A stretch of DNA of 48,113 nt from positions 1-48,113 of the IMG/VR virus record IMGVR_UViG_3300042312_000063; one strand, 5' to 3'. A program made the translations under genes and the position numbers. Every line of letters starts with the position of its first letter. Position 1 is the stretch's first letter. Of the stretch, positions 14,049 to 42,139 are shown in pieces. Below the pieces are notes generated by a model. It was not told where the DNA came from. It did not search any database and saw nothing but the letters and a program-made list of their open reading frames with translations. Source of the DNA: a virus.

Positions 14049-14064
14049 CCACCGGAGTAACCAC

Positions 14065-14460
14065 ATGACTGATAATAGGATCGACATCAGCGTACGTGTC
14101 GAGCAGTACGTCAAGTTGCGGGATAAGATCAAAGAGATCGAGACCCGCCACAAAGAGGAATTAAAACCGTACAAGGATACACTTGAGAAACTAAATTCAG
14201 TTATACTGCAGCATCTCACTCAAGTAGGTGGCGAAAGCATCCGCACCCAAGCTGGTACGGCTTACGTCACCGAGAAGAAAACGGCGTCACTTGCCGATCC
14301 GCAGGCTTTCATGGACTACGTTGTTACTAACAGCGCGTGGGACTTGTTGGACCGCAAGGCAAACGTGAAGGCTGTCACTGACTATATCGATGAACACAAA
14401 GCACCCCCTCCGGGTGTCAACTATTCGACGACCAATATGGTCGGCGTCCGTCGCTCGTAA
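14065..14460 (+). CDS. Conserved phage hypothetical protein (131 aa)
   Basis: The ATG at 14065 follows CCGGAGTAACCAC; the frame is open upstream to 14032, but that start lies in the helicase gene. The N-terminal coiled coil (KLRDKIKEIETRHKEELKPY, LEKLNSVILQHL) is followed by IRTQAGTAYVTEKKTASLAD, then WDLLDRKANVKAVTDYIDEH and PPPGVNYSTTNMVGVRR. I recognise this layout as widespread in phages, usually next to the ssDNA-binding protein as here. A replication accessory role is likely, but the function is unknown. Confidence 0.7.
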   Translation: MTDNRIDISVRVEQYVKLRDKIKEIETRHKEELKPYKDTLEKLNSVILQHLTQVGGESIRTQAGTAYVTEKKTASLADPQAFMDYVVTNSAWDLLDRKANVKAVTDYIDEHKAPPPGVNYSTTNMVGVRRS

Positions 14461-22500: not shown

Positions 22501-25500
22501 ATCCTTCCCAAATATGCGGTCGCCCATCTGAGCGATTTCGTTCAAACGAGAAAGCGCAATAGTGGCTTTGGTAGGAGTTCTGTAACTCGCAGTCGGTACG
22601 AACATCGCTTCTGCGACGGTCGTAGCTTCCTTCTTAATCTCAGTCTCAGCCTTTGGCTTCGGCTGTTCGTTACTACCGAAGTTACTGGCGAGCTCATCGA
22701 TAAAGGGCTTAGCGTTCTTAAAGTTGAAGTCGGCACCGAGCTCTTCTTTAAGTACGTTCACAAGCTCCGTTGCCGTCTCGCGATCAACGCCACGGCTCTC
22801 AAGCTCACGACGGATGCTAGCGTCGATACCACGACGAGCAGCGTAGTCTGGAACATTAACGTCGCGAACTTCGCGCGCGGCCATGGCACGCGCCATCTCT
22901 TCGGGCTTGAGTGCAGAGTATTTTGCACCGCGAGGAAGTGCCTCACGTTCTTCAAATGCACGGTCAGTATAGCGGATAGCTTCTTCAAGGGCCGAGCGTG
23001 TATTCGGCGTAGTGCCAAGCGTCTGACGGACGAGGTCGACCATCGCCTTGAACGTGTCACGCACCCAGCCGCCAGCCGGGTTGATGTTCATAGCGCGGAG
23101 CTGTGCGTCAGAGATCTTGATCTCTGTGAGCAAGTCTTGGAAGTCAGGGTTGGACCAAGTCTCCGAGATAAACTCGTCAGCGTTCTTGAGGCCGTACCGA
23201 ACATCAAGCGCTTCGTATGCTGCTTTGAGCTCGGGGTTGTTCTCAAGCTCGCTCTTCACAAAATCGCGAAGGCTTTCGATCTGCTTAGCAAGAGCCTTGT
23301 TACGGCGGATAGCATTTGCCAGCACACCATGCAGCGCCTCATGGATAATGAGGTTGCGTCCTTCCCGCGTGCCGGGAACATAATAGTCCTCATGGATGAG
23401 GATATGGTTCTTGATCGGATCGTAAGCACCTGCAATGCGGTCGCTACGCCCAGTCAGGATATTGGCGCGGCGCATTGTGTCGTTATCGACGACCATTACC
23501 TTCATGTCGCCAATGAGGCGCATGATACGGCTTTCGATAAAATCGCTTAACGCGTTACGAACCTTCTTCTTGTCCCCAGTGAGTACGTTCTCAGCGAACA
23601 TCTCACGGACAGTCGTTTCGCGGCTTGCGTAGATTGGCTCGTCTGAGATCTCGTTAATGAGACGGCGGAACTCGCTTGTCTGCAAACGGCTGATCGGAAA
23701 CTCAGCGTTGGCACGAACAGCGGCAAGGAACTCGCCCTTGTCAGAACGGACGATCCAATTCTTAAACTGGCTATCCGTCATGTTGTTCAGGCGTTCGGCA
23801 AGGCGAGCCTTCTCAGAACCACGCGACGAGTACTCAGCCTTCAGAAGATCATAGATGCTGACTTCGCGACCAGTAAGTTTGGCGTAATTATCAGCCGCGT
23901 CTTCTGCGGCTTTGGCGCGGTTCTCGTCCAGAGAGATGTAGTTCTGCTGATCGTTAACGTCAGACTGACCGCCAGACTTATCACTCTTTTTGCTGTCGAG
24001 ATGAAGACGTGCAATCTCTTCGAGCTGCTCCTTTGGAAGAGCAAGGAACGCATCCTTATCCTTCTGCCGCTTGAGCTGAGTTTCTACGATATCGTCAATG
24101 GCAGCTTTAACCTGCGCGTCAGTGTAGTCGCGCTTCTCCACCTCAGGAGGAGTTTCGGGTTCAGGAAGTTCTGCCTTAGCTGCAGCTTCTTCCTCTGCTA
24201 CGCGACGACGTTCGATGGTCTCAAGATTAGCTTCATGTTCTTGCTGCCATGCAGCATCAATCTTTTTAGTGCGCTCAGTGTTTGCAGCCGAGCGGCCACG
24301 TGTCTGACCAGACTTCGCTTCAGCGGCGTCCTTGTAATACTGCGGTGCAGCATCTCCAGCGGTCTTAACGGCAGTGAGGGCGCGGCGCACAAATCGGTCG
24401 CGTGCTTTCGGGTTAGTCGTATCAGGGGCAACACCGAAGTCACGGTTGTCGCCTTCTGTAGTCAAGCGATAACCGCGCTGCGCGGCAGCGGCTTCGCGGG
24501 CAAGTTCTGCTTCCTGCTCAGCGCTACGAAGGATACGACGCGGCGGCTGCTCAGCCTTCGGCGGCGTTACTTCGGTAGTAACAGGAGCTTCCGACGCTGC
24601 TGCCTTTGGCTTTTCGGGAGCCTTAACGCGGCGGCGCACACGCTCAACGATTGGCCCAGTCTTGGGACCGGCACCGGCGGGAGGAGTTTCGACGCGCTCT
24701 GCTATGACTTCCTGCGGTGTGCGGACTTCGACAGTATCAGTAGGTGCAGCCTGTTCGGCTACCTTGGCGATATCAGCGTTAACCGTCTCGCTGCTCGTCA
24801 GAGCATCAGTCTTCGGCGTACCAGCTTCATCACGAACTGTGATGGCTGCAGGCTCTGCGCCACGCTCTTCGACGGCACGAACTGCTTCTGTCTTAGAAGT
24901 ATCACCCATGCCAAGGGCTTCGTTAAGACGCCCCTTTTTATCAAGATCACGCAGAGCTTTGGCGGTAATCTTTTTGGGGTTGTAGTACGCACGAGTACCG
25001 CTCGGCAGCTTGATGGACTTCATACCTTCTGGCAGAGGAGGGATGCCATTCTGCACAAGTTGGCGATCTTCAAACGTCACACCTTCTGGGAACAAAACAG
25101 TAGAACGGCCAGCTTCAGGACTGACCATATCATTGACCTGAGCCTCAAACTGTTCGGGCTTCTCGGCAACAGTTGGTTCGCCCTGCGTGCGTTGTTCGAT
25201 TGTAGGCTCAGGCTGGGTTGCTTCGATACCAGCTTTGATATTTTCGTCTTCGATCTGACGCTTTGTCTTACCTTCTGGCGGTGTCAGCGATAGCTCGCTG
25301 AAATCTAACCTGCCTGTGGTCCAATGGCTTTTACCGTTCTTGCTTGTATAGAAGCCAAACGATGGACCAGTTGTGCCGTCAGAAAATACAGACCGCACAA
25401 CGGTGCGCGGTAAGCGGCGTCTGCCAGAAAGGAAAGCACCAATCCCAGTCGCAGGTTCCTTGTGCTCGACTGTGAATGTGAGAACGCCATCCGGCGTATA

Positions 25501-26982
25501 TAGCTTTGTTCCCTCGGGAAGCTTCTGCAGCGTCTCATACGCGGCACGTGGATACGCTTTTGTACCCTGCGCTTCAACAACATCAGAGAACGAGACGTCA
25601 GCGGGGGCAGGCTTAGCTTCTTCAGTAGTTTTAGCTGCGGCTTCCTCAGCCGCGCGCTGCTCTCTAACGCGGCGCACAAGCTCTTTAGCTCGCTCGTTAA
25701 GATCGTTCTTCGCTGCGGCCTCAACCGTCGGATCGATATCAGTTGTCGTTGCCGTACCAGCGTCAGGCTTTACTGCTTCTGCTACTGCCGGATCGACACC
25801 AGCGGGTGGGCGGGCAGCACGTTCTTCTGCACGGCGCTCGATGCGGCCAGCAACCTTTACACCACCAAACGGGACACCGCTGAAGAACGCATTAACAGTA
25901 GCATCCGCGACCTTAGCTGCACGATGAACAAAGTCTTCGTTACCACCGAAGTAACCGGCCAGAAGCTCGGTCGTTGCAGCGCTAGCGAACCCGCCAACGG
26001 CAAACATGGCAGGATCGGCGACGGCCAGACGAGCAAGATCGCGTGTGAAGTTCTGTGTGAACTTACCCGGATCGCCGATGTACTTAACCATCAAACCAGT
26101 GGCGAGACCGTTCACGGCACCGCCAATGAGTGAAATCCTACGGACGTCCTGCTGTGTTAGCTCGCCAGACTTGAGCTTGTCTTGGATGCCCTTGTCTTCG
26201 AGCAAAGCGTTGTACGTCGCACCGATACCTTGCACGGCACCAATGCCCACGCCTGTCGCGACACCGCCAAGCATGAAAGGAGCGAAGCCACCAAAGCCTT
26301 CGCCAAAACGCTCCATCAGGTATGTGCCGAAATCCCCGACACCCCTAACTTCGCTCAGGCTATTGATCTCACCGCGAACCAGTTTGGCCTGACCTTCAGA
26401 CCAATCAGCAAGATCTTTGGCCCAGTCCAGTTTGATCTCTTCGTTCGTCAGAAGTTCTGACATCACGTTGAGACCACGTGCCGCTTCACCAATCGAACCA
26501 GCCATACCCTTAGCGGCAGACATGGTGAACGGTGCGACGAGCTTAGAAGCGAGCTGACCAGCTACGACGTTACCGCCAGCGGGGTCATAGAAGTCGCCCA
26601 TAGCGTTACTAACGCCAAGGCCAACGTCACGAAACTGATCGCCTTCGTTACCAAGCCCTTGGTCACGCGGCTGCTCTTGGAAAACAGAACTGTCGCGCAC
26701 ACGCTCGGGCTCGGAGGCTGGCATGGGGGCATCGCGCATGATCGCAAGACCTGCGCTATCACCCATCGGATCAGTGCCCATCAGCGGAGGCTCAACGCGC
26801 CCCGGTGCGGTCTCTTTCTCTGGCTCAGTCGAGCTAATATCACGCAGATATTGTTCGCCAGCCTTTAGAGCTTGGCCGACAAAACCCGGCTTCGGATTGT
26901 TTTCATCATAGAGAAACTGTTCGAAATCCAGTTTCTCATCCGCATTGCTTTTGAGAAACTGTTCGAAATCGAGCTCAGCCAT
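19552..26982 (-). CDS. Giant internal virion protein with zincin motif (2476 aa)
   Basis: The ATG at 26982 overlaps the previous stop (ATGA). The N-terminus repeats LDFEQFL twice within 25 residues, possibly a packaging or docking tag. Hydrophobic Gly/Ala-rich segments occupy roughly residues 110-300, then Ala/Glu/Lys/Pro-rich low-complexity and coiled-coil sequence to about 1000. A zinc-protease motif NLIIHEALHGVLA (H1214, E1215, H1218) follows. The C-terminal region (about 2100-2476; LRLPLQFKLFLQGSIHAVGR and hydrophobic helices) resembles polyvalent LPD38-type phage proteins. Such giants are packaged and ejected with the DNA. A role in cell-envelope or host-protein processing is inferred. 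Confidence 0.85.
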   Translation of the reverse strand: MAELDFEQFLKSNADEKLDFEQFLYDENNPKPGFVGQALKAGEQYLRDISSTEPEKETAPGRVEPPLMGTDPMGDSAGLAIMRDAPMPASEPERVRDSSVFQEQPRDQGLGNEGDQFRDVGLGVSNAMGDFYDPAGGNVVAGQLASKLVAPFTMSAAKGMAGSIGEAARGLNVMSELLTNEEIKLDWAKDLADWSEGQAKLVRGEINSLSEVRGVGDFGTYLMERFGEGFGGFAPFMLGGVATGVGIGAVQGIGATYNALLEDKGIQDKLKSGELTQQDVRRISLIGGAVNGLATGLMVKYIGDPGKFTQNFTRDLARLAVADPAMFAVGGFASAATTELLAGYFGGNEDFVHRAAKVADATVNAFFSGVPFGGVKVAGRIERRAEERAARPPAGVDPAVAEAVKPDAGTATTTDIDPTVEAAAKNDLNERAKELVRRVREQRAAEEAAAKTTEEAKPAPADVSFSDVVEAQGTKAYPRAAYETLQKLPEGTKLYTPDGVLTFTVEHKEPATGIGAFLSGRRRLPRTVVRSVFSDGTTGPSFGFYTSKNGKSHWTTGRLDFSELSLTPPEGKTKRQIEDENIKAGIEATQPEPTIEQRTQGEPTVAEKPEQFEAQVNDMVSPEAGRSTVLFPEGVTFEDRQLVQNGIPPLPEGMKSIKLPSGTRAYYNPKKITAKALRDLDKKGRLNEALGMGDTSKTEAVRAVEERGAEPAAITVRDEAGTPKTDALTSSETVNADIAKVAEQAAPTDTVEVRTPQEVIAERVETPPAGAGPKTGPIVERVRRRVKAPEKPKAAASEAPVTTEVTPPKAEQPPRRILRSAEQEAELAREAAAAQRGYRLTTEGDNRDFGVAPDTTNPKARDRFVRRALTAVKTAGDAAPQYYKDAAEAKSGQTRGRSAANTERTKKIDAAWQQEHEANLETIERRRVAEEEAAAKAELPEPETPPEVEKRDYTDAQVKAAIDDIVETQLKRQKDKDAFLALPKEQLEEIARLHLDSKKSDKSGGQSDVNDQQNYISLDENRAKAAEDAADNYAKLTGREVSIYDLLKAEYSSRGSEKARLAERLNNMTDSQFKNWIVRSDKGEFLAAVRANAEFPISRLQTSEFRRLINEISDEPIYASRETTVREMFAENVLTGDKKKVRNALSDFIESRIMRLIGDMKVMVVDNDTMRRANILTGRSDRIAGAYDPIKNHILIHEDYYVPGTREGRNLIIHEALHGVLANAIRRNKALAKQIESLRDFVKSELENNPELKAAYEALDVRYGLKNADEFISETWSNPDFQDLLTEIKISDAQLRAMNINPAGGWVRDTFKAMVDLVRQTLGTTPNTRSALEEAIRYTDRAFEEREALPRGAKYSALKPEEMARAMAAREVRDVNVPDYAARRGIDASIRRELESRGVDRETATELVNVLKEELGADFNFKNAKPFIDELASNFGSNEQPKPKAETEIKKEATTVAEAMFVPTASYRTPTKATIALSRLNEIAQMGDRIFGKDTNPLRTISDLVQMQGREKAKILTDFEADLIELAAASNKFKGNGFEEMVAIALDASRAQVHPDVPLADPKNKHLGKDKMSGVWGKSQHPQLAERFKALADKTPELAQIYTKIRDMLPKMLDARLRTVVDAVLRGADIDDPAVAQRFMDGKTTAADVDAVGPILAKHIANVVDAARLDGPYFNFARRGDFVVHGRYKIEAPANATKVRDNTFDFKDRKDAEEWVRKQSLPTSFESVYIDPKTGKDFFTDDKGEQIKVTKQDVDGEQRFRVTVQDRYTEFVESLSEAKSRTKELRDEGLAMSDPEDRKNLTTGQWRDLLPNQIRSLMETAEQRLGTSKLTPTQRNEITGILNEFSITMMGPNRIQSTQMPRRNVAGMSTDFVRNTIEYMERSAGYMARTKFQEAMTKALKDLNDRTEKLSALGTGNGTMARRLANEVENRVIGSNAIEEASSFGRGVDRVNALSYADKLLSLGYSMTNLTQITYTFAELGGDHGAARSAYHIVKAYNDVSAGRLLGRGAAETVKAVIGKDGNAPYIEQVKARLSPKEQELLDFLVDRGVVDPDAGFDMTAIKRQRGGKTIGDKVVAGADKGIDYLSNVARALPRAVEAVNRTVTALAAYRLEMKRNGGDHEKAMRYAQDVVSNSQFNSSPTNVPPTFRNKYLRLPLQFKLFLQGSIHAVGRQVGRAIRNESPGDRVKAVRALAIYTASYAAMAGVLGLPGMELAKIALLLANALNISDFKPSDFERMVRRYMAGMLGNEGGEIASRGLTRMIGVDTSNRLGFPTILFGEPRGDTEDAAWAYVAKLVGGAPTAYVVDAVKGFRAAMSGDWQKAAELTIPIKALSDYLKADRVSKEGLKNEAGRQTFTPYTTQEKVTRAIGFTPAREAERFEERSAIQGDLARYNKERQKLMNDWVSNPNNRAKAMIAIEKFNRGKPKDAQIDMKDLRASEKRRQTEEKKGTVVQGIRTNKRNQYILEDIDYYNTGK
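24566..24582. repeat. GTTAC-N7-GTAAC inverted repeat, copy 11
   Basis: GTTACTTCGGTAGTAAC lies in the minus-strand giant virion gene, encoding VTTEVT. The identical 17-mer recurs at 36008-36024. Confidence 0.85.
25939..25955. repeat. GTTAC-N7-GTAAC inverted repeat, copy 12
   Basis: GTTACCACCGAAGTAAC lies in the giant virion gene in a different codon phase (encoding GYFGGN). Confidence 0.8.
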
Positions 26983-29015
26983 CACAGTCCCTCAGTCGAA
27001 AATCCGTTTTCTTTCAGGTAGTTTAGCATATCCTGACGTCTAGCTGGGTTCTCTTTTAGGACACGCTTAGCTTCTTTCATATCTTCTGCGGAGAGAGGAG
27101 AAGGACCACGGTCACGAACTGACTTCTGCACGCCCATGATCTGGCGTGCCGTCGCACCATCAACGATCACAGGGCGGTTGTCACCAATACGCAGACGACC
27201 TGAACTGTCGAAACGTACAGGCGTGTTTGGGTCGACAGCTTCATTCATCAAACGAGCCACTTGGCCCTTAGTCATCTCGTTCTTCTGGCCAATGACAACG
27301 GCAGCATCTTGGATGCGGCCAATGTCTTTTTTCGGTAAGCGCTTGGCAAGCATAGTCGGAGCTTCTGGAGTACCAGCAATAGCTTCTTCGTACTCTTTGT
27401 AGACATCGTTGAGCTTCTCGCCCTTGACCGAAAGGTTCGTCGTGTTCTCCGAACGGATATCGGCCTTCGTCGATCCAAGCTGACCAGTCGTCATGCTCTC
27501 AACAAAGCGGCCACGAGCGCGTGCCGGGGCAGTAGCCTCAGAACGTGCATCGCCTTGGACGACCGGGATCGCTTCGCCAGTGTCGACATCCTTGTCAGAC
27601 AGCATATCGACGTAACCACGGGTAGTAACCGCACGGGTCATTTTATCGACGTCGACCGCTTCGCTAGCCTTAGCCTTTGCTGAACCGCTGGGAGACAATG
27701 GTGTCACGCCAAGACCGCGCAATGCGTAAGCTACGCCAGTATCAGAGCGCTTCTTAGCTGGGATATTCTGACGTACACCAGCAACGATCTTGCCGTAAAC
27801 TTCGGTAGCCTTGTCCTCAATCCGCGCACGCTCTTCCTCCGTCTCAGCGGCAGCGTGTTGGCGTTTGAGGATGTTATGCTCCTTAATCAGAGCGGTAGTA
27901 TCAATAGCTTCAGTGGCTGGAGCTGTTGCACCGGCCTTAGCCTGAGGCTTCGCACCAATCCCACGCGCTTTGGCTTGCGCTGCAACCTGACCGAGCTGTT
28001 GTGTGAACGCCTGACCGCTTCTGAGTTGCTGCGCCATCTGGGCAAGCTGCGGCGGTGTAGCGTTAATCTCTTCCTGAGTGACGTTACCCTTAACGATCTT
28101 AGCTTTAACTGCCCCATCGGGGCCGACGGTGAAGTCTTCACCCTCAGTCGCAACTGCCGGACGGATCTGCATCGGGCCCGGAAGATCGTAATTGTAGGCG
28201 TCGGCGATCAACTTAGCTGCAGAGCGAACGTCACCGTCTTCGAGTGCCTGTGTGGCAAGCATACCGCGCGTCTGCGAGTTAGCCTTGTTGTACATAAGAA
28301 GGCCATTGGCAGCGGCGGCACCCTTATCGGGTTCGCCCTTCTTATCATAGTACTCGTACATCGCTGCGATACGCGCCGCGCTCTTGGCTTCCTCAGGAAG
28401 CACATTGTCGGGATCGATGATCTGATCGAGGGCTGCAATTTGGTCCTTAGTGAACGCGCCCTTGTTCTGGGCGAACGCGCGATACTTGTCTTCGCCGCCG
28501 TCGACAGCCACAGCTTCGTTACTAGCCGTGAGGTTCTGGACCATGTTCTTAACACCGGCATCCACGCCGGGAGACGCAAGCTCGAACATCTTGTCTGCTA
28601 CGTCGAACTGCTCAGTATTAGTGGGAGCGGCTTCATCTGACGGCGTAGTAGCATCGTCAACAGCGCGCTTTATGCTCGAACCTACGAGACCGCCAGTCGC
28701 GTAAAGTTCAGACGTGCCTGCCCCAATGTTGGGGTCCATCTTGTTGTAGTTAATGATGTCTTCGTCGAGCTTATTTAGTGTGTTGATGTCGCCAGCGCGG
28801 AACGCGCGACCGCGAGCACCAAGCAGGCTCTTCGCACCAGCTTCGAAATCAGACAACGAACTATCTTCGTCTTCGTCACTACCATAACCGTAATGGCGCT
28901 TTGAAGCACCACTACGGGCCTTGAGGTAGGCTTTGCGGTACTCGCTATCGTCCATCATCTTCCAGCCAGACTGCAGGCCAGCGGTGAACTCTTTAAGCTC
29001 TTGAGCGAAACCCAT
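26982..29015 (-). CDS. Internal virion protein (677 aa)
   Basis: The start overlaps the previous stop as TAATG. The protein is soluble, acidic and repeat-poor. The N-terminus is MGFAQELKEFTAGLQSGWKM; there are many helical Ala/Lys/Glu segments and one short Gln-rich helix (QLAQMAQQLRSGQAFTQQLG). Position and size between a shorter Ala/Gly-rich virion protein and a giant one match the internal (ejection) protein trio of podoviruses. No enzymatic motif is seen. Confidence 0.65.
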   Translation of the reverse strand: MGFAQELKEFTAGLQSGWKMMDDSEYRKAYLKARSGASKRHYGYGSDEDEDSSLSDFEAGAKSLLGARGRAFRAGDINTLNKLDEDIINYNKMDPNIGAGTSELYATGGLVGSSIKRAVDDATTPSDEAAPTNTEQFDVADKMFELASPGVDAGVKNMVQNLTASNEAVAVDGGEDKYRAFAQNKGAFTKDQIAALDQIIDPDNVLPEEAKSAARIAAMYEYYDKKGEPDKGAAAANGLLMYNKANSQTRGMLATQALEDGDVRSAAKLIADAYNYDLPGPMQIRPAVATEGEDFTVGPDGAVKAKIVKGNVTQEEINATPPQLAQMAQQLRSGQAFTQQLGQVAAQAKARGIGAKPQAKAGATAPATEAIDTTALIKEHNILKRQHAAAETEEERARIEDKATEVYGKIVAGVRQNIPAKKRSDTGVAYALRGLGVTPLSPSGSAKAKASEAVDVDKMTRAVTTRGYVDMLSDKDVDTGEAIPVVQGDARSEATAPARARGRFVESMTTGQLGSTKADIRSENTTNLSVKGEKLNDVYKEYEEAIAGTPEAPTMLAKRLPKKDIGRIQDAAVVIGQKNEMTKGQVARLMNEAVDPNTPVRFDSSGRLRIGDNRPVIVDGATARQIMGVQKSVRDRGPSPLSAEDMKEAKRVLKENPARRQDMLNYLKENGFSTEGL

Positions 29016-30109
29016 TAGACGGCTCCACGGGATGCAAATGTCGGGGGTTGAATTGGTGCCATACCAACTTCAGGGATTGCTCCAGAACGCTGCGGAAGAT
29101 CCGTGCGCTCCTTCTTAGCTTTCTCGATCATTTGGTGCATGGTCTTCTCGCCGACCCAAGCGACGACGTCCTTAGGAACAACGAACTCGCCAGCGTTCAG
29201 ACGGGCAGGGACATCGTCGACGGCCTTACCACGTGTCGGAGAAGCTTCGGCTGGGACTGCGCCACCAGAGACCGGACCACCATCTTCAAGGTAAGACATA
29301 GCCGCTTTGGCTCCGATACCAAGAACGGTACCAGCCAGACCGCCCCAACCTGATGAGCTGGACTGATTAGCCTTCCAAGCATCAAGCGAGTTCTGGTAAC
29401 CCATATTGAGGATGTTGCCCCAAGTACCAACGGCTTGGTTGCCGAGACCCTGCCACTGAGTAGCCGTTCCCATGGTGTTAGCACCGGAGGCTGTGGTAGC
29501 GAGGCCAGCATTGACTGCTTGGTTACCACCCTGAAGTGCAGTGCCGTATGTAGCGGCAACCTGACCGGGGTAGCCCCTGCCGACGTTGATGGCTTCAGAA
29601 CGCAGGGCGCGGGATACCGCGTCAACCTGAGCGTTGGCTTGGTTACCAGCAGCCGCCGTAGCAGCCGCCTGACCTGTACGAGCGCCGATATCAAGAGCAG
29701 CGTAACGGGTCGAGCTCGGATCAATACCGAAACTCTCAAGGTTACGGGTAGCGGCCTCGCGAGCGCGGTCAAACTGCTGGGCTACGCCAGCTTGGGCGCG
29801 TCCAACTTCAAGTTCGCGGCGTTCTTTAGTGCCATATGTCGAGGCGTCCCGTATGAGGTCCATCTCAAGCGGGCGGTATTTCTCGGTATAGAAGGCGCGA
29901 TCAGCTTCGGCGGCTCGCTGATTGTCCTCCATGATCTGCATGGCGCGGCCAATGACGCGGTCTGAGACTTCGCGGTCAAGCCTATATTGTTCCTTAGCCC
30001 AGTCTAGCTGCTCACGGCCTAGCTTATAGGAGTACTCGGCAGACTTCTCTGAGGCTGCGGCGAGTTGGCTATAATCTGGTGCCGGAGGTGCCTTAGCTTT
30101 ACCACCCAT
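29015..30109 (-). CDS. Internal virion or ejection protein with a C-terminal ordered domain (364 aa)
   Basis: The N-terminus (MGGKAKAPPAPDYSQLAAAS) and following helices (YSYKLGREQLDWAKEQYRLD) are typical of the first protein of podovirus-like ejection clusters. The middle is Ala/Gly/Gln-rich (QAAATAAAGNQANAQVDAVS). The last 90 residues hold GGPVSGGAVPAEASPTRGKA, then DDVPARLNAGEFVVPKDVVAW, a conserved motif of phage virion proteins. No enzyme signature. Coupled by TAATG to both neighbours. Confidence 0.7.
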   Translation of the reverse strand: MGGKAKAPPAPDYSQLAAASEKSAEYSYKLGREQLDWAKEQYRLDREVSDRVIGRAMQIMEDNQRAAEADRAFYTEKYRPLEMDLIRDASTYGTKERRELEVGRAQAGVAQQFDRAREAATRNLESFGIDPSSTRYAALDIGARTGQAAATAAAGNQANAQVDAVSRALRSEAINVGRGYPGQVAATYGTALQGGNQAVNAGLATTASGANTMGTATQWQGLGNQAVGTWGNILNMGYQNSLDAWKANQSSSSGWGGLAGTVLGIGAKAAMSYLEDGGPVSGGAVPAEASPTRGKAVDDVPARLNAGEFVVPKDVVAWVGEKTMHQMIEKAKKERTDLPQRSGAIPEVGMAPIQPPTFASRGAV

Positions 30110-30549
30110 TACGCAGCCTCCTGCATCAAAAACTCGCGGCTAGGTTTCAGTTTTAGCCAACGGCAGTCTTCACGAACCATAGACACAACGATCAAGTCCT
30201 CGTCTGGGAAGACATCCTTGATCCGAGCCTCTATCTTAAACCCTAATTTAAGGTCAAAGTCTAGGGCATGACTGTTGTTTGCAGGTATTTGGCCGAACAG
30301 TTTCCGGCATCCTAGCTGCACAAATGGGTAATGGAACGTGATCCAAAGCATGTCCCTACTGGCCCACTTTGCATCAATACCATAGGTGTGCAGGTTAATA
30401 CTTGCACCAGTGTACCCATTGAAAATAACGCCACCAGTCAACTCACCATTGCGGACATTAGAGATGACGCGGTCGACGGCTGGATTGAACTGTACGCCTG
30501 CCCCTTCGGCTATTAGATATCCGTGAACTGGATTACCTAGCTCGATCAT
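30109..30549 (-). CDS. GNAT-like acetyltransferase, phage virion-cluster type (146 aa)
   Basis: The ATG at 30549 overlaps the preceding stop (TAATG); the frame is open seven codons upstream. The conserved C-terminal part ALDFDLKLGFKIEARIKDVF followed by PDEDLIVVSM and EDCRWL corresponds to the acetyl-CoA-binding and LGF segments of GNAT-fold proteins seen next to ejection proteins in many podoviruses. Whether it is enzymatically active is unknown. Possible roles are protein modification in the host or in the particle. Confidence 0.7.
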   Translation of the reverse strand: MIELGNPVHGYLIAEGAGVQFNPAVDRVISNVRNGELTGGVIFNGYTGASINLHTYGIDAKWASRDMLWITFHYPFVQLGCRKLFGQIPANNSHALDFDLKLGFKIEARIKDVFPDEDLIVVSMVREDCRWLKLKPSREFLMQEAA

Positions 30550-33074
30550 TAACCACACAGATAGATGCAAGCGACAAGTTTAACTTCGTCCGGTGAAGAG
30601 AATGTAACATTCTCACGGGCTTTGGCAACGGTGCAACCACGGACAATGTCATCGGCTTGCTTCATACCTTTACCCGGCATGGAGGACGAGACAATGAGGT
30701 CGCCTGTCTCAATGTCGCCATTTTCTCCACAGACGAGAACCTGACCTTCACCCAAAGCATTGACGGCGATGTAGTCGTAGTTACCGCGCATGGCCTCCCA
30801 GATAGGGGTCATCTCGTTCTCGACATACCTGTCCTCTGTAAGGATAACAGGCCACTCTACGCTCCCATCACGAGCTGCCTCTGTCTGAGGGGGAGGGTTC
30901 TGATCGAATACTGCCGGTGGCATGGTATTGCCGAGACGTCCGTGTTTATACGCAACTACCCCAACAACACCTTTTTGGTTTTGGCGACTGCTTTTCTCAA
31001 CCCGGCAAAGGACGTTAGACACACTACGACGGACAAGGCACTCCACATCGACAACGATCTCTCCAATTTCGACGTCATAGTCTATCTCAGTAAGAGCATC
31101 GTGAGCACCAGTAAACGGGCCATAGTTTATCCCGTTACCTTCGGCATAAAAATCATAGCCGTTAGCTACGCCGACAAGTCCAGATGTGTACCCAGTTGAG
31201 AAGTTAGATCGGCCACGAACGCCATGGTTGAAGGCTCCACCATCAGCGCCAAGGCCGTAGATACACTCAACTCCGTTAGCACTGGTACTAAGTGCTGGTA
31301 GGTTTGGGTCTGCGATGTTGCCGCCACTTAGGCAGGTAGTAATCGGTCGCCACAGAAATACGTTCTGGTTGCCGGTATACGCCTGCAAAATGTACTGGCC
31401 GCTACTATTGGTAATTAGAAGGTTCACAGCCGTGAGCGTGCCGCCACTAATGCGGTTAGCGCTTAAACTACCAGTAGTGATTTTACCCGCGTCGAGATCG
31501 CCAATATAGGCGCTGCCTATAGCTGCGAGATCGATATAGGTCGCGACGTTAGAAGTCCTGATCTTGTCTAATACTGCAAATGGCCCGAGCCCACTCACCT
31601 GCGTATTAGGAAGCGACCCAGTAATCTTAGAAGCCGACAGCGCAGCATCAACCGCGAGCTGACCGCTACTAATAAAAAACGGTGTCGCTGTACCAGTTGG
31701 TGTGGTTACGATGAACTGGTCTGTGTTGAACTTGATACGACTTGTGCCATTTGAGAACGCTTGGATACGCATCCCAGCACTGCTGTAGGTAGAGTTAGGA
31801 CCACTCTCAGCCGCACGGACCTGTACCTGAAATTCTGCAGCCGCTCCGTCCGATGGACTAGCGCTTGCCAGAAGTTGGTAGAACCCGCCAGCCGAACCAC
31901 CAGTGGTCTTAACTTCAAGGCTGTTAAGGTCAGACGCTAGGGCGCTCGTACCATTAGCTGTCGTAACCTGCGTACCGTTAATCGTCGCAGTGTTACCATC
32001 AGGGCCAATCGATACAAGGTTATCGAGGCGAGTAGCCGTAGTCTTATCGCCGTCAGTCTTTGAAATGCTCTCGGTGACAAGAGTTGAAAGCAGCACGCCG
32101 AGGCTGTCGACGTTTGTAACAACTTGCCACGCCGACCCCGTCCACTTTTTAAGGGTGTTAGCTAAAGCGGTATCCAGCCAAAGATCATTAACGGCAATAA
32201 CGCGAGGCGTCCTAGACTGAATGAACGCAGTTGTCTGCGTCTGCCAGCTAGATCCGTTATAGACCTTCAGTAACGTAGTCGTAGTGTCGAACCAGATAGT
32301 TCCAACAGATGGCGAAGTTGGAGCTGTCGACTGAATGAACGCAGACCGAGTAGCCCATAGAGAACCATTCCACTGCTTAATAACTGGTGGCGACGTGTTA
32401 ACATCGACCCAGTAATCGTTAACTAGAAGCGAGCGTGGGAAGTTACTTTGGATATAGGTATAGGCGTTAGTTGACGCGGTAGTAACAGCGTTAATCTGTG
32501 TGGCAATCGCACCATCTGGACCTGACAACGCAAGGATATCGGTAGTAACCGCCGCGATCATGCCCTGCGTTTGAGCGTTTACCGTATCGATACGGCCAGA
32601 CAACGCCTGTGTCGCTGTCGAGCGGGCTAGCTGCTCTGTTACGATCTTAGCGTTAGTGTCATCGACTGCCGCATCTAGCTGAACGATCTGAGCTTTAGTT
32701 ACGGCATTGGTATCCTCAATACCTTGCCGAAACATATCTAGCGCGTTCTGCAACGTGGCGAGCGCAATACGCGCCTCACGCTGGTTCTGCTCAGCTAATT
32801 TAGCTGCTTGCGCCGCCGCTTTGTCTAGGATCTGATCGAGTGTCGGATCTAGGAGGATCTTACTCCAGTTCGTCTTCTCTGTAGATATAGTGACCGCTTT
32901 CTTAATGGCGGTATCGAGATCTGCAACCGTAGCAACCCATGCACTGCTATCGCCAGTCTGACGACTTAGAACCTCTACAGTCTGCTTGAGGGCGCGAACA
33001 GCCGTTGCGACACTATCTAGTGTCGTTCCAACTTCGGGGATAGCTGCGTATTTGTTATTACGAACATCAACCAC
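30549..33074 (-). CDS. Tail fibre/tail protein with Peptidase_G2-like C-terminus (about 841 aa)
   Basis: GGGAG lies 7 nt before a GTG at 33074, preferred over a TTG at 33080. The N-terminal half is a long helical coiled coil (DLDTAIKKAVTI, EQNQREARIALATLQNALDM). Three short repeats with the pattern DYWxD/WFDTTTTLxKxWNGSxW follow (residues about 235-320), and then beta-rich trimer-like segments. The last 160 residues end with DYIAVNALGEGQVLVCGENG, GDLIVSSSMPGKGMKQADD and VAKARE, the signature of a self-cleaving intramolecular chaperone domain (Peptidase_G2 type). It is probably a receptor-binding or central tail spike. Confidence 0.8.
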   Translation of the reverse strand: MVDVRNNKYAAIPEVGTTLDSVATAVRALKQTVEVLSRQTGDSSAWVATVADLDTAIKKAVTISTEKTNWSKILLDPTLDQILDKAAAQAAKLAEQNQREARIALATLQNALDMFRQGIEDTNAVTKAQIVQLDAAVDDTNAKIVTEQLARSTATQALSGRIDTVNAQTQGMIAAVTTDILALSGPDGAIATQINAVTTASTNAYTYIQSNFPRSLLVNDYWVDVNTSPPVIKQWNGSLWATRSAFIQSTAPTSPSVGTIWFDTTTTLLKVYNGSSWQTQTTAFIQSRTPRVIAVNDLWLDTALANTLKKWTGSAWQVVTNVDSLGVLLSTLVTESISKTDGDKTTATRLDNLVSIGPDGNTATINGTQVTTANGTSALASDLNSLEVKTTGGSAGGFYQLLASASPSDGAAAEFQVQVRAAESGPNSTYSSAGMRIQAFSNGTSRIKFNTDQFIVTTPTGTATPFFISSGQLAVDAALSASKITGSLPNTQVSGLGPFAVLDKIRTSNVATYIDLAAIGSAYIGDLDAGKITTGSLSANRISGGTLTAVNLLITNSSGQYILQAYTGNQNVFLWRPITTCLSGGNIADPNLPALSTSANGVECIYGLGADGGAFNHGVRGRSNFSTGYTSGLVGVANGYDFYAEGNGINYGPFTGAHDALTEIDYDVEIGEIVVDVECLVRRSVSNVLCRVEKSSRQNQKGVVGVVAYKHGRLGNTMPPAVFDQNPPPQTEAARDGSVEWPVILTEDRYVENEMTPIWEAMRGNYDYIAVNALGEGQVLVCGENGDIETGDLIVSSSMPGKGMKQADDIVRGCTVAKARENVTFSSPDEVKLVACIYLCG

Positions 33075-38012: not shown

Positions 38013-38780
38013 TTAAGCGCCCTCTTCCTTGAGCATCTGGTATCGCCAATACCATATAGCGACCGCCATAACGACAATGGCTATAGCGATCCAAAAGCTT
38101 GGCGAACGCACCAAGGCTGTCAAAATCCCGACACTGTCGTGCGTAGTGGACGCCGCTGAGACCGCTTGGTTGAACTGGCTCGCAGCCTCAAGACCGCCAG
38201 CAATCCCTACGCCGACGGAGGTGTTGGCGATGCGGGACTTCGTAATCGGCTTCGGAGGCTGCGGTACGTCGACCGGTGTGGCAGCAGATGCCACGCGATT
38301 AGTCTTGATCTCCCGCCATAGAGCCACTTCAGCGCGACGGCGATTAACAAGTCCCGGAAGAACCTTCCCATTGTCGTTCACCCACTTCATGAACTCAGCG
38401 GGAACCTGATCGAATTTCTTAGCGTTAACACGCTTGAGCAGAGTAGAGCGAGCGAAGGCCCCCCTGCCGACATTGAACGTGAAAGAAACCAGAGCGTCAA
38501 ATTGCTCTTGGGTGAGGTCGACCGTGACAAGTTCTGACACCTGCTGGGCAACTGCCGTAACGTCCCTATCGAAGATATTCTCGCCTTCAGCCTTAGTGAT
38601 AACCATCCCGGCTTCTGGGATCGGATCACCGGCAGCGGCGGTATGACCGTATCCAATAGTTAACATCCCGATAACAGGCCCGCCCTTGTAATGCTTCTTT
38701 GGCTTGGCGTCGTCATAGCAGTAGGGGATGAAGGTCTCCCAGCTCTTGATGAGCTTGCGACCCTTTGGTCCTACGTTCAT
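38013..38780 (-). CDS. Endolysin, GH24 lysozyme-type muramidase with C-terminal transmembrane helix (255 aa)
   Basis: The ATG at 38780 overlaps the preceding stop (ATGA) and has GGAG upstream. The catalytic triad of T4-lysozyme-like enzymes is recognisable: E15 (KSWETF), D24 and T41 (LTIGYGHT). The motif NVGRGAFARSTLLKRVNAKK and PGLVNRRRAEVALW are also GH24 features. The usual domain ends near residue 160. A further 95 residues lead to a transmembrane segment (FWIAIAIVVMAVAIWYW), so the enzyme may stay membrane-tethered until released. It hydrolyses peptidoglycan during lysis. Confidence 0.92.
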   Translation of the reverse strand: MNVGPKGRKLIKSWETFIPYCYDDAKPKKHYKGGPVIGMLTIGYGHTAAAGDPIPEAGMVITKAEGENIFDRDVTAVAQQVSELVTVDLTQEQFDALVSFTFNVGRGAFARSTLLKRVNAKKFDQVPAEFMKWVNDNGKVLPGLVNRRRAEVALWREIKTNRVASAATPVDVPQPPKPITKSRIANTSVGVGIAGGLEAASQFNQAVSAASTTHDSVGILTALVRSPSFWIAIAIVVMAVAIWYWRYQMLKEEGA

Positions 38781-38995
38781 CGTGGAAGGCTCCATAAATA
38801 ACTAAGTACTTTGGTGGCAGCGATTGTAATGGCTGATGCTGCACCGCCAACCATAACCATGACCTTCCACCCGCCTCTGGCCTGATGCAAGATCTGAAGC
38901 ATCTCATTCTGGTTCTTAATAAGTGTCGCAACATCCCGCTCCAAGCGGTCGATCTTGGCTTCAAAGTTACCGACTGTGCGCTGGATGTCGTCCAT
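38777..38995 (-). CDS. Holin candidate with coiled coil and transmembrane helix (72 aa)
   Basis: The N-terminal charged coiled coil (FEAKIDRLERDVATLIKNQN) is followed by one hydrophobic helix (VMVMVGGAASAITIAATKVL), similar in layout to XhlA-type holins or haemolysins. It is directly coupled to the endolysin gene. The function is inferred from position and topology. Confidence 0.7.
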   Translation of the reverse strand: MDDIQRTVGNFEAKIDRLERDVATLIKNQNEMLQILHQARGGWKVMVMVGGAASAITIAATKVLSYLWSLPR

Positions 38996-39001
38996 GGTTG
39001 G

Positions 39002-39292
39002 TCACCGGGCTGTCAAGTTGTATGAGATGGTATTAACTTCGGTGTCGCCTTTAGAGGTCAGCGCCCTTATTTCGACATCGTACTGTACATTGGCTTCGCC
39101 ACCAGAGACATAGAAAACTACAAGTTTGCCATCGACGAGATGGTACTCGTCGACATCGAACTGGTTTTGTGTCTGAGGAGTTACTACGAAAGTAACCTCT
39201 TCAACGAGCTCATCGTCATCGAGCCATATACTATAGTCGATGTTGTAGCGTTTCCGCTCGGTCGGTCTCTTGAAGTATCTTCCTAAGAGCAT
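39002..39292 (-). CDS. Fibre-tail adaptor-like protein (96 aa)
   Basis: The ATG at 39292 has GGAG 9 nt upstream, preferred over an ATG at 39316 inside the bilin reductase gene. Sequence: RYNIDYSIWLDDDELVEEVT followed by strands typical of a small Ig-like fold (VEIRALTSKGDTEVNTISYN). The YxxDYSxWL opening matches a family of short phage proteins that I know as fibre-tail adaptors (Gp77-like); the assignment is tentative. A dyad copy is encoded as VTFVVT. Confidence 0.6.
   Translation of the reverse strand: MLLGRYFKRPTERKRYNIDYSIWLDDDELVEEVTFVVTPQTQNQFDVDEYHLVDGKLVVFYVSGGEANVQYDVEIRALTSKGDTEVNTISYNLTAR
39180..39196. repeat. GTTAC-N7-GTAAC inverted repeat, copy 14
   Basis: GTTACTACGAAAGTAAC lies in the adaptor-like gene just downstream of the bilin cassette, encoding VTFVVT. 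Confidence 0.85.
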
Positions 39293-39942
39293 GGCGGCAA
39301 CTCCGGGAATAGGCATGTCTGGATGAAGTCATGCACTGTCTCTTCGTCAAAGCCAAGAGACATCATGACCTTAGGCGTATGCGGGTTGCACTTTTGGTTG
39401 CGACAATACCTATTCTGAGCGTCGGTATACTCGCCACTTATAGCACCTATGCTATTGAGGTGGTAGTTCAGGGTGTCGTCTACTAAGTCTAAAACTGTCT
39501 TCAGTTCGGCTTGATCTGAGATGTTACCTGCAGCGACCATGCTTGAGCTAAATATCTCGCGCGCCCAATCTGGTAAAGATCTCTCCTTACTCCACTCAAG
39601 ACCTTTGACCCGGTTAGAGAACCACTCAAGCATCGGGCTATTGGGGTCTATGGGGCTGAAATCGTGGAAGGCTCCGGTGACTTTGTTTGGTCCTGCGATC
39701 AGGTCAAAGCCAAAAATGGGCGAGCCGTCAGTAGTGTGTGGGAACACCGTCAGGTGCATCATGTAGAGCTTCTTCGTGTCCCGCACGTCGACGACGTCGA
39801 GATGGGCGCGACGGAAGGTATCCGCACGCCAGACACAGTTAAGCCATGGGTATCTGTGGCCTTCGTCTACTGGTTCGTAAGACGAGAAGCGTGCGATGAT
39901 TTGATCTTTAAGGGCGTCAAGATGCGCGAATGTCGTGGGCAT
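39283..39942 (-). CDS. Ferredoxin-dependent bilin reductase (PcyX/PebS-like, 219 aa)
   Basis: It belongs to the Fe_bilin_red family (PF05996), which reduces biliverdin to phycobilins using ferredoxin. Core motifs: AHLDVVD (D49, at the place of PcyA Glu76), LYMMHLTVFPH (H63, PcyA His88), PIFGFDLIAGPNKVTGAFHD (D80, the central Asp105 of PcyA; H63 to D80 spacing matches PcyA), and C-terminal DAQNRYCRNQKCNPHTPKVM followed by a terminal LFP. The E-to-D change and the motif style resemble PebS/PcyX-type enzymes that make phycoerythrobilin in four-electron steps; the exact product cannot be read here. GACGAGGTGTCGG precedes the ATG. It overlaps the heme oxygenase gene by 26 nt. No ferredoxin gene is seen in the window. 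Confidence 0.88.
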   Translation of the reverse strand: MPTTFAHLDALKDQIIARFSSYEPVDEGHRYPWLNCVWRADTFRRAHLDVVDVRDTKKLYMMHLTVFPHTTDGSPIFGFDLIAGPNKVTGAFHDFSPIDPNSPMLEWFSNRVKGLEWSKERSLPDWAREIFSSSMVAAGNISDQAELKTVLDLVDDTLNYHLNSIGAISGEYTDAQNRYCRNQKCNPHTPKVMMSLGFDEETVHDFIQTCLFPELPPCS

Positions 39943-40453
39943 CCGACACCTCGTCGAACAGTCTTAAGGCGAAGTCAAAGACCCGGTTCGCCTCTTCTCC
40001 AAGCTCGTCAGATAGTTTCTCACGAACCTTCTTCACCAGCTCTGCACGATCCTTAAAGTCGTACATGGTGCATGAGCCGGGAGCGACCTTCTTGATGATC
40101 TGCCCGCCATAAAGGTCTGCGAAGTGCCGTCCGTATACATGAGCCCAGAGATAGTCCGGCTTCACCCAGTCGAGGTAGCGGATATACTCTCTGGTTGATG
40201 GGTATATGTCAGACACACGCTCTAGTTCGTAAAAATCGCGCCAGATGTGCTGTGACCTGTACAGGTCTTCGATACCATCAAACATGCCATGCTGGTAAAT
40301 CTTCTGCTCAAGCGCTTCGTAACAAGTCGCTTGGTTGGCAAGGAAGTCCGCATAGATTTTGTCCGGCATTTCGCCGGACAATAGAAGCACAACAAAGCGG
40401 TGGTGTTCCGCCTTGTCATGCTTCTCTTTGATAGCGTCCCGAAGGCTCATCAT
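39917..40453 (-). CDS. ho1: Heme oxygenase, phage type (178 aa)
   Basis: It opens heme to biliverdin, CO and iron. Proximal-histidine helix: IKEKHDKAEHHRF, with H12 at the position of human HO-1 His25, then the family pattern SGEMPDKIYADFL and YEALEQKI. The distal helix YGRHFADLYGGQIIKK corresponds to YxRYLGDLSGGQ, keeping the catalytic Asp (D113, like Asp140) and the GG kink; the first Gly of that motif is Ala112 here. At 178 aa it is slightly shorter than cyanobacterial HO1. The start is coupled (ATGATG) to the upstream gene, and no clear ribosome binding site is present. It directly precedes the bilin reductase. Confidence 0.88.
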   Translation of the reverse strand: MMSLRDAIKEKHDKAEHHRFVVLLLSGEMPDKIYADFLANQATCYEALEQKIYQHGMFDGIEDLYRSQHIWRDFYELERVSDIYPSTREYIRYLDWVKPDYLWAHVYGRHFADLYGGQIIKKVAPGSCTMYDFKDRAELVKKVREKLSDELGEEANRVFDFALRLFDEVSDAHDIRAS

Positions 40454-40707
40454 GCAGCCGGGAGGGAAGGGGGTGCCGGAAGGCCGAGTTCTTCCGCTAG
40501 AGCAACCGCTGCGGCGTGCTCAATCTCTTGCACTTGGCGGTCGGTTTTACCGGCATATCGGTCCTTAACGCTGTCTGTTGCAGCGTCATAGTAGAACCTA
40601 TGCTGCAACTGGTTAGAGTTAGGAGCTTCATAGGCCCCATCATCTGTCACAACCAGAACTGGGTTGTTAGCCAAATCGCCGAGGACATTGAATTTAAGTT
40701 TTGCCAT
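40450..40707 (-). CDS. Hypothetical protein upstream of heme oxygenase (85 aa)
   Basis: It starts MAKLKFNVLGDLANNPVLVV and ends PAPPSLPAA. A mixed alpha/beta protein with a helical HAAAVALAEEL end. It is a structural-region neighbour and is translationally coupled to the heme oxygenase; no function is recognised. Confidence 0.6.
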   Translation of the reverse strand: MAKLKFNVLGDLANNPVLVVTDDGAYEAPNSNQLQHRFYYDAATDSVKDRYAGKTDRQVQEIEHAAAVALAEELGLPAPPSLPAA

Positions 40708-40717
40708 TTCTCAGACC

Positions 40718-42139
40718 TCAGTACGGAAGGTTAGATTGGAAGTCGAACTCAGAAACGTGAGTAAGACCCGGATAGTTAGTTGTATTTGGGCCCGGTGCTG
40801 ACGGGAAATACACAGTAGTTGTGAATACATCTGGAGATCCACCAGCCGTCAGCGACGGTGAAGCATATCCAAAGATGTAAGCTGCCGTGTAGTTAGAAGC
40901 GTAGAAATTCCCGTTTTCAATAAACGCAAACTGGTTGTTGCGATATTTAACAGGATAAGAACCAGAGGTAGTGTTGTTGCTAGTTGGCGAAGAGATCCAC
41001 GAGCTATTGCGTTTGTCGATAACCCACCCACGCATACCACACTGGTAGTAGTAATAGACTGCCCAAGCGCAAACCATGCTACCATCACGTGTCTGCATTT
41101 GGCGCTGACCGTATGCCTCGCCCTGATCCACCCCATAAGATGTCGTCATGCTTTGCGAGCCAACAAGTGTATTTGACAGAGAAGCATCGCCTGTGGCGCG
41201 AGTTATCTTCCACAAATAATAGTTATTGCTATTCTCGTTAAACGAGCTGACGAAGATAGAACCATCATCGACGAGAACCCATTTTGAGTTAAAACGCCCT
41301 TCGTTGGTGTTTACCCAAGATGCAAGAGTTGTATTAAGCAGTACGTCAGGGTTGCCAAGCGTTGCCACGTTACCCACTACAGCGTCAAAATCAAAGTTCT
41401 TCCAGATACCGATATTGACACGACCGCTAGTCGTAGACGTAAAGCAAGCGACCATAAGTTCTTTACGAACGGCGTTATAGGACGCGGAGCCGTACATAGA
41501 CGTAATCTGGCTACCGCCATCATACGTCGTAAAGATGCTTGCTAAATTCTTCTTAGGACGCGGGAACGGATCAGTAGCCGTGACAGCGTAAGGAACTGGT
41601 GTCTGCTCTGGACTAACAGTAAGCCACCCAGATGAAAACTGCATAGTCAGCTTCTTATTGGCGTGGTCGCTATTAACAAAAGCTCTATTAGCGCGGACTG
41701 GTGCGGTTGCAGTCTGTGTTAAGAAGCGGAGAGACGATGACATAATAATGCCACGCTCAGAAGCCCAAGCAGCAGCTTGACCGTATTCGCCCATACTCGC
41801 GGTACCGCAAAGTGGGAGCGAATACGATGATGTTGACATAGCTGTTTGTGTATTTGGTCCCATGCTAGCGTTGTACATTTGCCCAGCATTTTGGACATAT
41901 GTTGTATTCTGGTTCTCAAGATCGTTAGTAAACCCTGCAGCGTAATTCTGGCCGATTAAGTTCGCCGCTGCCCCGATACGCCGAAACTCACCGTCGTAGA
42001 ATACTGCTCCGCAAAACGTTGACGACGTGTTGAACGACATCATTGCATACGATGCGCGCGGCATAGCTTGCCCTGACATCGTATTGAAAGCGCCGATTGT
42101 GTTCTGGGTACCAGAAGTGACTTGCGAAAGGAAAGCCAT
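40718..42139 (-). CDS. Putative tail or fibre-associated structural protein (473 aa)
   Basis: A beta-rich, Ser/Thr/Asn-rich protein with segments suggestive of repeated propeller blades (for example SKWVLVDDGSIFVSSFNENS, RDGSMVCAWAVYYYYQ, NQFAFIENGNFYAS). It lies directly downstream of the 970-aa fibre gene, 15 nt away. No catalytic motif is seen. It probably binds the fibre or cell surface. Confidence 0.6.
   Translation of the reverse strand: MAFLSQVTSGTQNTIGAFNTMSGQAMPRASYAMMSFNTSSTFCGAVFYDGEFRRIGAAANLIGQNYAAGFTNDLENQNTTYVQNAGQMYNASMGPNTQTAMSTSSYSLPLCGTASMGEYGQAAAWASERGIIMSSSLRFLTQTATAPVRANRAFVNSDHANKKLTMQFSSGWLTVSPEQTPVPYAVTATDPFPRPKKNLASIFTTYDGGSQITSMYGSASYNAVRKELMVACFTSTTSGRVNIGIWKNFDFDAVVGNVATLGNPDVLLNTTLASWVNTNEGRFNSKWVLVDDGSIFVSSFNENSNNYYLWKITRATGDASLSNTLVGSQSMTTSYGVDQGEAYGQRQMQTRDGSMVCAWAVYYYYQCGMRGWVIDKRNSSWISSPTSNNTTSGSYPVKYRNNQFAFIENGNFYASNYTAAYIFGYASPSLTAGGSPDVFTTTVYFPSAPGPNTTNYPGLTHVSEFDFQSNLPY

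Follow-up and report, generated by a model that had tools for sequence, protein, structure and literature searches.

Enzymes of the PcyX type were reportedly described by Ledermann et al. in 2016 and 2018. Phage-borne enzymes that act on the path from heme to bilins are known from cyanophages, in the form of pcyA (P-SSM4 and others) and pebS (P-SSM2). PMC11480375 reports two kinds of cassette, hemO-pcyX and valaS-hemO-pcyA/X, from pelagimyophage-like marine contigs and from the freshwater phage CB_2, describes the phage heme oxygenase (HO) and ferredoxin-dependent bilin reductase (FDBR) proteins as active, and calls the co-occurrence of the two in such phages 'still enigmatic'. Here we analyze an HO gene and an overlapping FDBR gene in a stretch of 48,113 nucleotides of viral DNA (the window; positions 1 to 48,113 of the IMG/VR virus record IMGVR_UViG_3300042312_000063). 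Judging from sequence comparison, this is a real, functional-looking HO-PcyX pair in a lineage for which we found no earlier report.

The novelty of the pair itself was overrated in the initial annotation of the window, given that hemO-pcyX in phages of non-cyanobacteria had already been published (PMC11480375, in the portion available). What is apparently new is the carrier, a Rhizobium-phage-like and presumably short-tailed phage, and the context of ClpS, heat shock protein (Hsp) and curli genes in which relatives of the pair occur. In the titles and abstract openings of the part of the open-licence literature that was covered, there is no report of the cassette in a short-tailed or Rhizobium-type phage, or of the cassette with ClpS, Hsp20 or curli genes. 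The available text of PMC9599517, on podoviral pelagiphages, mentions ferrochelatase and 2-oxoglutarate (2OG) oxygenases and does not contain the word 'bilin'; that of PMC7029224 includes a curli operon and no 'bilin', and that of PMC13198022 concerns pebS.

The two genes overlap at 39283-40453, where the initial annotation had placed them (Table 1), and both products match their Pfam families well above the curated cut-offs, HO with PF01126 (1.4e-17, 64.6 bits against a cut-off of 23) and FDBR with PF05996 (1e-20, 74.8 bits against 31). Among PDB sequences, the HO retrieves heme oxygenases from 9.2e-12, and its predicted structure (predicted local distance difference test score, pLDDT, 95.7) adopts the all-helical HO fold (Z 22.1 and root-mean-square deviation, rmsd, 2.1 to rat HO-1, 1dvg, with 175 residues aligned). 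The proximal ligand is H12 and the motif of the distal helix is YGRHFADLYGGQ. Conservation was assessed over 63 distinct HOs longer than 150 aa, drawn from 87 of 91 sequences including that of the window (the four sequences of 150 aa or less were left out): D113, G116 and G117, the distal Asp and the Gly-Gly, are kept in all 63, and the proximal His in 62, the remaining row being gapped at this position.

One residue of the window HO departs from the common pattern. Residue 112 (codon 40118-40120), at the position of Gly139 of human HO-1, is Ala, a replacement confined to the window phage, which is also represented by a twin contig (L002), and to the loci L003 and L004; 61 of the 63 distinct HOs have Gly. 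Structures of a G139A mutant HO are among those solved, and this mutant, specifically, is reported to have remained active. The accessible part of PMC8388933, an in silico study, notes Ala at the Gly139 position in some HOs, that of A. thaliana among them, and states that mutation of Gly139 or Gly143 abolishes oxygenase activity. We regard Ala112 as an HO variant that is not counted against membership in the HO family but does not decide activity.

The FDBR can be assigned more narrowly than the initial annotation had done. Its nearest solved structure by sequence is 5owg (PcyX_EBK42635; 183.6 bits, compared with 57 bits for cyanobacterial PcyA). In a tree of 75 rows, three of whose references are partial sequences and several of whose long branches were flagged, the window protein falls in a 68-row clade (100/99) together with 5owg and the FDBR of the Pelagibacter phage Mosig EXVC030M, apart from six PcyA references and one PebS, that of P-SSM2, which forms a long branch of its own and has Asn at the position of window His63. 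At residue 49 the window protein has Asp, like 5owg (Asp55, that is, chain position 63 minus the numbering offset of 8) and Mosig; all six PcyA references have Glu (Glu76) here. H63 and D80 align with His88 and Asp105 of PcyA. The triad D49/H63/D80, which the initial annotation had singled out, is kept in all 66 distinct FDBRs (from 89 sequences). In the portions available, PMC11480375 describes Asp55 as a PcyX-specific residue and PcyX as an enzyme that makes the pink pigment phycoerythrobilin (PEB), and PMC10151467 describes Glu76 as PcyA-specific and needed for 18-vinyl reduction. The predicted fold (pLDDT 92.7) superimposes on 5owg with Z 22.9 and rmsd 1.2 over 168 residues, on PcyA with Z 23.0 and rmsd 2.5 over 206, and on PebS with Z 17.9 (VIA-align). 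By its sequence the window FDBR is thus of the PcyX type, being neither a PcyA, as it lacks Glu76, nor a PebS by grouping. Profiles, tree, predicted folds and conserved residues agree on a heme oxygenase and a bilin reductase. Neither outcome that the initial annotation had named as refuting its reading occurred, since the two proteins belong to the expected families and their relatives retain the binding residues. The conversion proposed earlier, from heme through biliverdin to some phycobilin, is supported and can be sharpened: the PcyX-type Asp, the clade and the PEB made by the characterized PcyX all point to PEB as the expected product.

The FDBR could, conversely, be a PcyA that makes phycocyanobilin (PCB) and so gives a host phytochrome its photoactive chromophore. 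There is a precedent in CB_2, whose vPcyA/X, according to the available part of PMC11480375, makes PCB and builds photoactive Cph1, and which is likewise proposed to infect alphaproteobacteria; potential acceptors exist too, PHY domains being present in 31 of 385 sampled genomes of the class of G038 (a Rickettsiales metagenome bin), taken as Alphaproteobacteria. Yet the other 354 of these genomes have no PHY match, the window protein has at the Glu76 position the Asp that the same source calls PcyX-specific and that CB_2 lacks, the Glu assigned to 18-vinyl reduction is missing, and the tree places the protein with PcyX. We consider PCB synthesis unlikely.

Among described phages, close parallels are Mosig and the uncultured marine phages with a hemO-pcyX cassette. 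As in the window, the HO gene of Mosig lies directly upstream of, and overlaps, a PcyX-type FDBR gene beside virion structural genes. Asp replaces the Glu76 of PcyA in the FDBRs of both phages and in 5owg, whose fold is also alike. The window FDBR is 43% identical to 5owg (structural alignment) and 47% to the Mosig protein, and the HOs share 34%. The two carriers differ, the window phage being a Rhizobium-phage-related virus of about 60 kb and Mosig a T4-like pelagiphage, and in Mosig the pair is adjoined by ferrochelatase and several 2OG-Fe(II) oxygenases, none of which was recognized beside the window pair. The window HO also stands apart from Mosig and the marine hemO-pcyX cassettes by its Ala at the Gly139 position. 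CB_2, judged here from its published description, resembles the window in combining HO with an FDBR from the PcyA/PcyX branch, and its proposed hosts are alphaproteobacteria too; its FDBR differs in making PCB and in not having the PcyX Asp. The valaS-hemO-pcyA/X cassette includes an AlaS gene; there is no AlaS (TIGR01821) match in the window record or its twin contig, and 6 of 34 carrier records have one.

The carrier is related to phages of a different kind. Four proteins were searched against phage records, the terminase being taken from the twin contig, and the closest isolates are the Rhizobium phages RHph_TM3_14A, TM27A, TM27B and TM29 (terminase 59%, DNA polymerase 46%, primase 43% and internal virion protein 39% identical); gene-by-gene comparison adds portal (61%), helicase (57%) and exonuclease (49%). 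Gene order and the replication, packaging, internal virion and adaptor proteins are shared with these phages, which differ in their host-recognition genes and have a GH25 lysin in place of the lysozyme; neither gene comparison nor protein searches found a relative of the HO or FDBR in them. The twin contig ends in 40 bases identical to bases 88-127 of the window, which implies a genome that closes at about 60.5 kb (60.9 kb in the Rhizobium phages). Weaker matches connect proteins of the window phage to Burkholderia phages such as BcepIL02, which we take to be podoviruses. Together with the internal virion protein and the gp4/gp77-type adaptor, these matches suggest that the carrier is short-tailed. 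Relatedness to the Rhizobium phages makes an alphaproteobacterium the best guess for the host, which probably belongs to this class. The PcyX cassette thus extends to a compact phage; the isolates nearest to this phage grow on Rhizobium, a group that can be cultured, and the kinship suggests where a workable host might be sought.

These relationships also bear on whether the pair maintains the phycobilisomes of a cyanobacterial host, the role proposed for bilin genes in cyanophages. The reactions are of the same two kinds, and cyanophages do carry pcyA and pebS; the cyanophage PcyA proteins are, however, only 23-29% identical to the window FDBR, the nearest isolates infect Rhizobium, and the photosynthetic reaction center family Photo_RC has no match in any of the 34 carrier records. 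We consider this role very improbable, in line with the initial annotation, which had taken the host as probably not a cyanobacterium and had seen no photosynthesis gene in the window; Photo_RC, Fer2 and PHY gave no match there, other photosynthesis genes not having been searched individually. The search that it had proposed of related records found each of these three families in 0 of 34, the window and the longer twin contig included (4Fe-4S ferredoxin families were not searched). In a control set of 14 known genomes, Fer2 was found in 12, Photo_RC in 1 and PHY in 1. As many of the 34 records are fragments, we give this absence little weight.

To follow the pair across phages, the viral contigs of IMG/VR were scanned with six peptides of the window protein. 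Of the 109 FDBR relatives detected, 80 were kept and, with two loci fetched by HO (L083 and L084), the window, Mosig and five contigs from metagenome bins, make up 89 loci; several of these are identical and L002 is the window's own phage, so that the independent cases are fewer, with 66 distinct FDBRs. In all 89, HO lies upstream of FDBR on the same strand, the genes overlapping in 81 and being separated by 543-1487 nt in the other eight; a few HO genes are cut by contig ends. For the 89 loci, 34 records were given, many of them fragments, and the HO family was detected in all 34. A search of plasmids and a DNA-level search of 38777-40453 in phages gave no match. One locus (L022, 9414-9948) has an HO split into two reading frames next to an open FDBR frame. 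In another contig (L076, 9375-17943 in the 85,853-base record G030), two HO-FDBR pairs lie about 6 kb from each other and point in opposite directions.

Genes within 7 kb of the pair, each gene cluster being assigned its function from a single representative, fall into three disjoint neighborhoods. The largest comprises 42 loci (L049, L053, L061 and 39 others) with ClpS upstream, mostly along with Hsp20/Hsp70; downstream there is often CsgG (in 27 of the 42), along with a curlin-repeat protein. The bilin pair thus sits inside a stress/curli island that recurs among phages. A second group of 17 loci features T4-like head-closure and tail-sheath-stabilizer genes, and a third of 13, the window among them, a podovirus-type internal virion protein. 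A homologue of the window tail fibre is found upstream at 29 loci, all outside the ClpS group, and four of the 89 loci belong to none of these groups. Genes of the 2OG-Fe(II) oxygenase type occur at 11 of the 89 loci, and at 10 of these they immediately precede HO. Persistence of the couple across three disjoint neighborhoods focuses the question on the pair of enzymes and what they produce.

Bacterial PcyX was sought by scanning genome_contigs with two conserved peptides, an approach that would miss bacterial PcyA. The scan matched 27 stretches, five of which encode an FDBR relative, all in metagenome bins. Three of these loci (L087, L089 and L090) have the ClpS/Hsp20-type neighbors common to phage loci, so we take them for phage contigs that were sorted into bacterial bins; L086 belongs to none of the context groups. 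L089 lies on a 335 kb contig from a Neomarinimicrobiota bin, probably a large phage. Among the 385 genomes sampled from the class of G038, the genome of L090, there are three FDBR matches, two of them above the cut-off, that of G038 included; the FDBR of the other genome (L098) scores 17.7 bits against the FDBR profile and was kept out of the tree.

Given the fibre homologue that lies upstream of the pair in 29 of the 89 loci, and the distance of about 8.7 kb between two shared genes in the window phage, where the fibre block and HO-FDBR intervene, compared with about 0.95 kb in the Rhizobium phage, the pair could be a passenger of swapped tail-fibre (host-recognition) blocks with no selected function. 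The fibre homologue is, however, absent within 7 kb from the ClpS group, the largest of the three disjoint neighborhoods. Moreover, the ratio of nonsynonymous to synonymous substitution rates (dN/dS) between the window and its close relative L003 is 0.079 for FDBR and 0.158 for HO (0.076 for the nearby lysozyme); the HO comparisons L008-L016 and L023-L029 were saturated and left unused. Such low ratios show purifying selection, imply that the genes are not chance open reading frames (ORFs), and argue for function and against a pseudogene. The catalytic residues are invariant as well, and the split HO of L022 is the one broken copy seen. We regard a mere passenger as extremely improbable.

We propose that HO and FDBR constitute a single translationally coupled unit within an apparent late operon, coupling and late expression being suggested by gene layout. 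HO would open host heme, yielding biliverdin IXalpha, CO and Fe(II), and the PcyX-type FDBR would reduce biliverdin to PEB by four electrons, with reduced ferredoxin supplied by the host. We regard this enzymology as very likely, and the enzymology together with the HO-PcyX unit as a whole as likely. Late in infection, the pair would dispose of host heme and recover iron, ending in a reduced bilin that would be less harmful than heme or biliverdin and possibly an antioxidant. Heme disposal with iron recovery is our leading choice of purpose, tentatively made and the least certain part of the proposal; it is favored by the invariable position of HO ahead of the reductase and by the clustering of the 2OG-Fe(II) oxygenases and the Mosig ferrochelatase with the pair.

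Several points weigh against the proposal. The HO of the window carries the Ala discussed above. The FDBR tree, with its flagged long branches, contains no rows for the alphaproteobacterial AX-clade PcyA or for phage CB_2. Foldseek puts PcyA chains first and 5owg fourth and the VIA-align Z values of PcyX and PcyA are tied, so that fold alone does not separate the two. No Fer2 ferredoxin accompanies the pair in the 34 records, so electron supply rests on the host, and no iron-handling gene was recognized beside the pair in the window. Finally, if heme removal were all, neither the second enzyme nor the product-setting Asp would need to be invariant.

That Asp may simply be inherited; it is also the strongest hint in the sequences that PEB itself matters, and it keeps alive the readings in which the pigment acts as an effector or on a photoreceptor. 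In phages of non-photosynthetic bacteria, PEB made late in infection could act as an effector that occupies the phytochromes of the host, or else its other bilin-binding proteins, and thereby blinds or resets light or stress sensing, which would explain why the PEB-specifying Asp is kept in all relatives without a phytochrome in the phage records; we assign this a low probability. A closely allied and similarly doubtful possibility is that PEB binds to and locks a bilin-binding photoreceptor of the host (a bacteriophytochrome or another type), thereby altering host light signaling. Bacteriophytochromes normally bind biliverdin, which speaks against such locking, as does the small share of class genomes with a PHY domain, a share that limits any reading of this kind. 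Conversely, the Asp is invariant in the 66 FDBRs, the phage records hold no PHY-domain acceptor, and PEB forms a photoinactive adduct with Cph1 (PMC10151467).

Separately, iron-loaded tail fibres, the 'Ferrojan horse', were considered and rejected: repeated HxH motifs are lacking in the fibre, with none in that of the window and at most one in any of 37 fibres.

Table 1. The HO-FDBR pair and adjacent genes in the window
Feature	Position	Strand	Basis
Heme oxygenase, HO-1 type, 178 aa	39917..40453	-	PF01126, PDB HO matches, predicted fold, residue counts
PcyX-type ferredoxin-dependent bilin reductase, 219 aa, D49/H63/D80	39283..39942	-	PF05996, 5owg, tree, fold
HO/FDBR overlap, 26 nt; GAGG closely precedes FDBR start	39917..39942	-	Coordinates, sequence
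85-aa gene, function unassigned; stop overlaps HO start by 4 nt	40450..40707	-	No match in Pfam or PHROG
473-aa protein, function unassigned, between fibre and HO	40718..42139	-	No family match in Pfam or PHROGs
Tail fibre, 970 aa	42155..45067	-	phrog_9851, 3.1e-213
gp77/gp4-type fibre-tail adaptor; start overlaps FDBR end by 34 nt	39002..39316	-	PF23148, 1.9e-15
72-aa small protein, possible holin (guess)	38777..38995	-	Position before lysozyme only
Phage lysozyme (endolysin)	38013..38795	-	PF00959, 9.3e-40

The surroundings described in the initial annotation hold for fibre, adaptor and lysozyme; the holin can be kept as a guess only, its ORF having no family match in Pfam or PHROGs. The adaptor is 42% identical over 83 residues to the Rhizobium phage protein at the equivalent place. 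Among the loci compared, the 85-aa gene next to HO has relatives solely in the twin contig (L002/L082) and in L083/L084. The minus strand carries the lysozyme and most of the recognized virion genes, the plus strand the replication genes, as expected for a late arm, from which we infer late transcription of the pair; the late arm claimed earlier fits this layout, with two exceptions on the plus strand, a 'minor head protein' match (phrog_13900, 14032-14460) and the terminase in the twin contig.

Two further genes lie away from the pair. Window positions 30109-30570, inside the virion-protein cluster, match an Acyl-CoA N-acyltransferase family (phrog_4470); an N-acyltransferase is also annotated close to the virion-protein cluster of the Rhizobium phage, but blastp gave no link between the two. 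The 2477-aa protein encoded at 19552-26985 resembles, in its C-terminal part, a 'DarB-like antirestriction' family (phrog_10089) and has a Rhizobium phage homologue of 35% identity.

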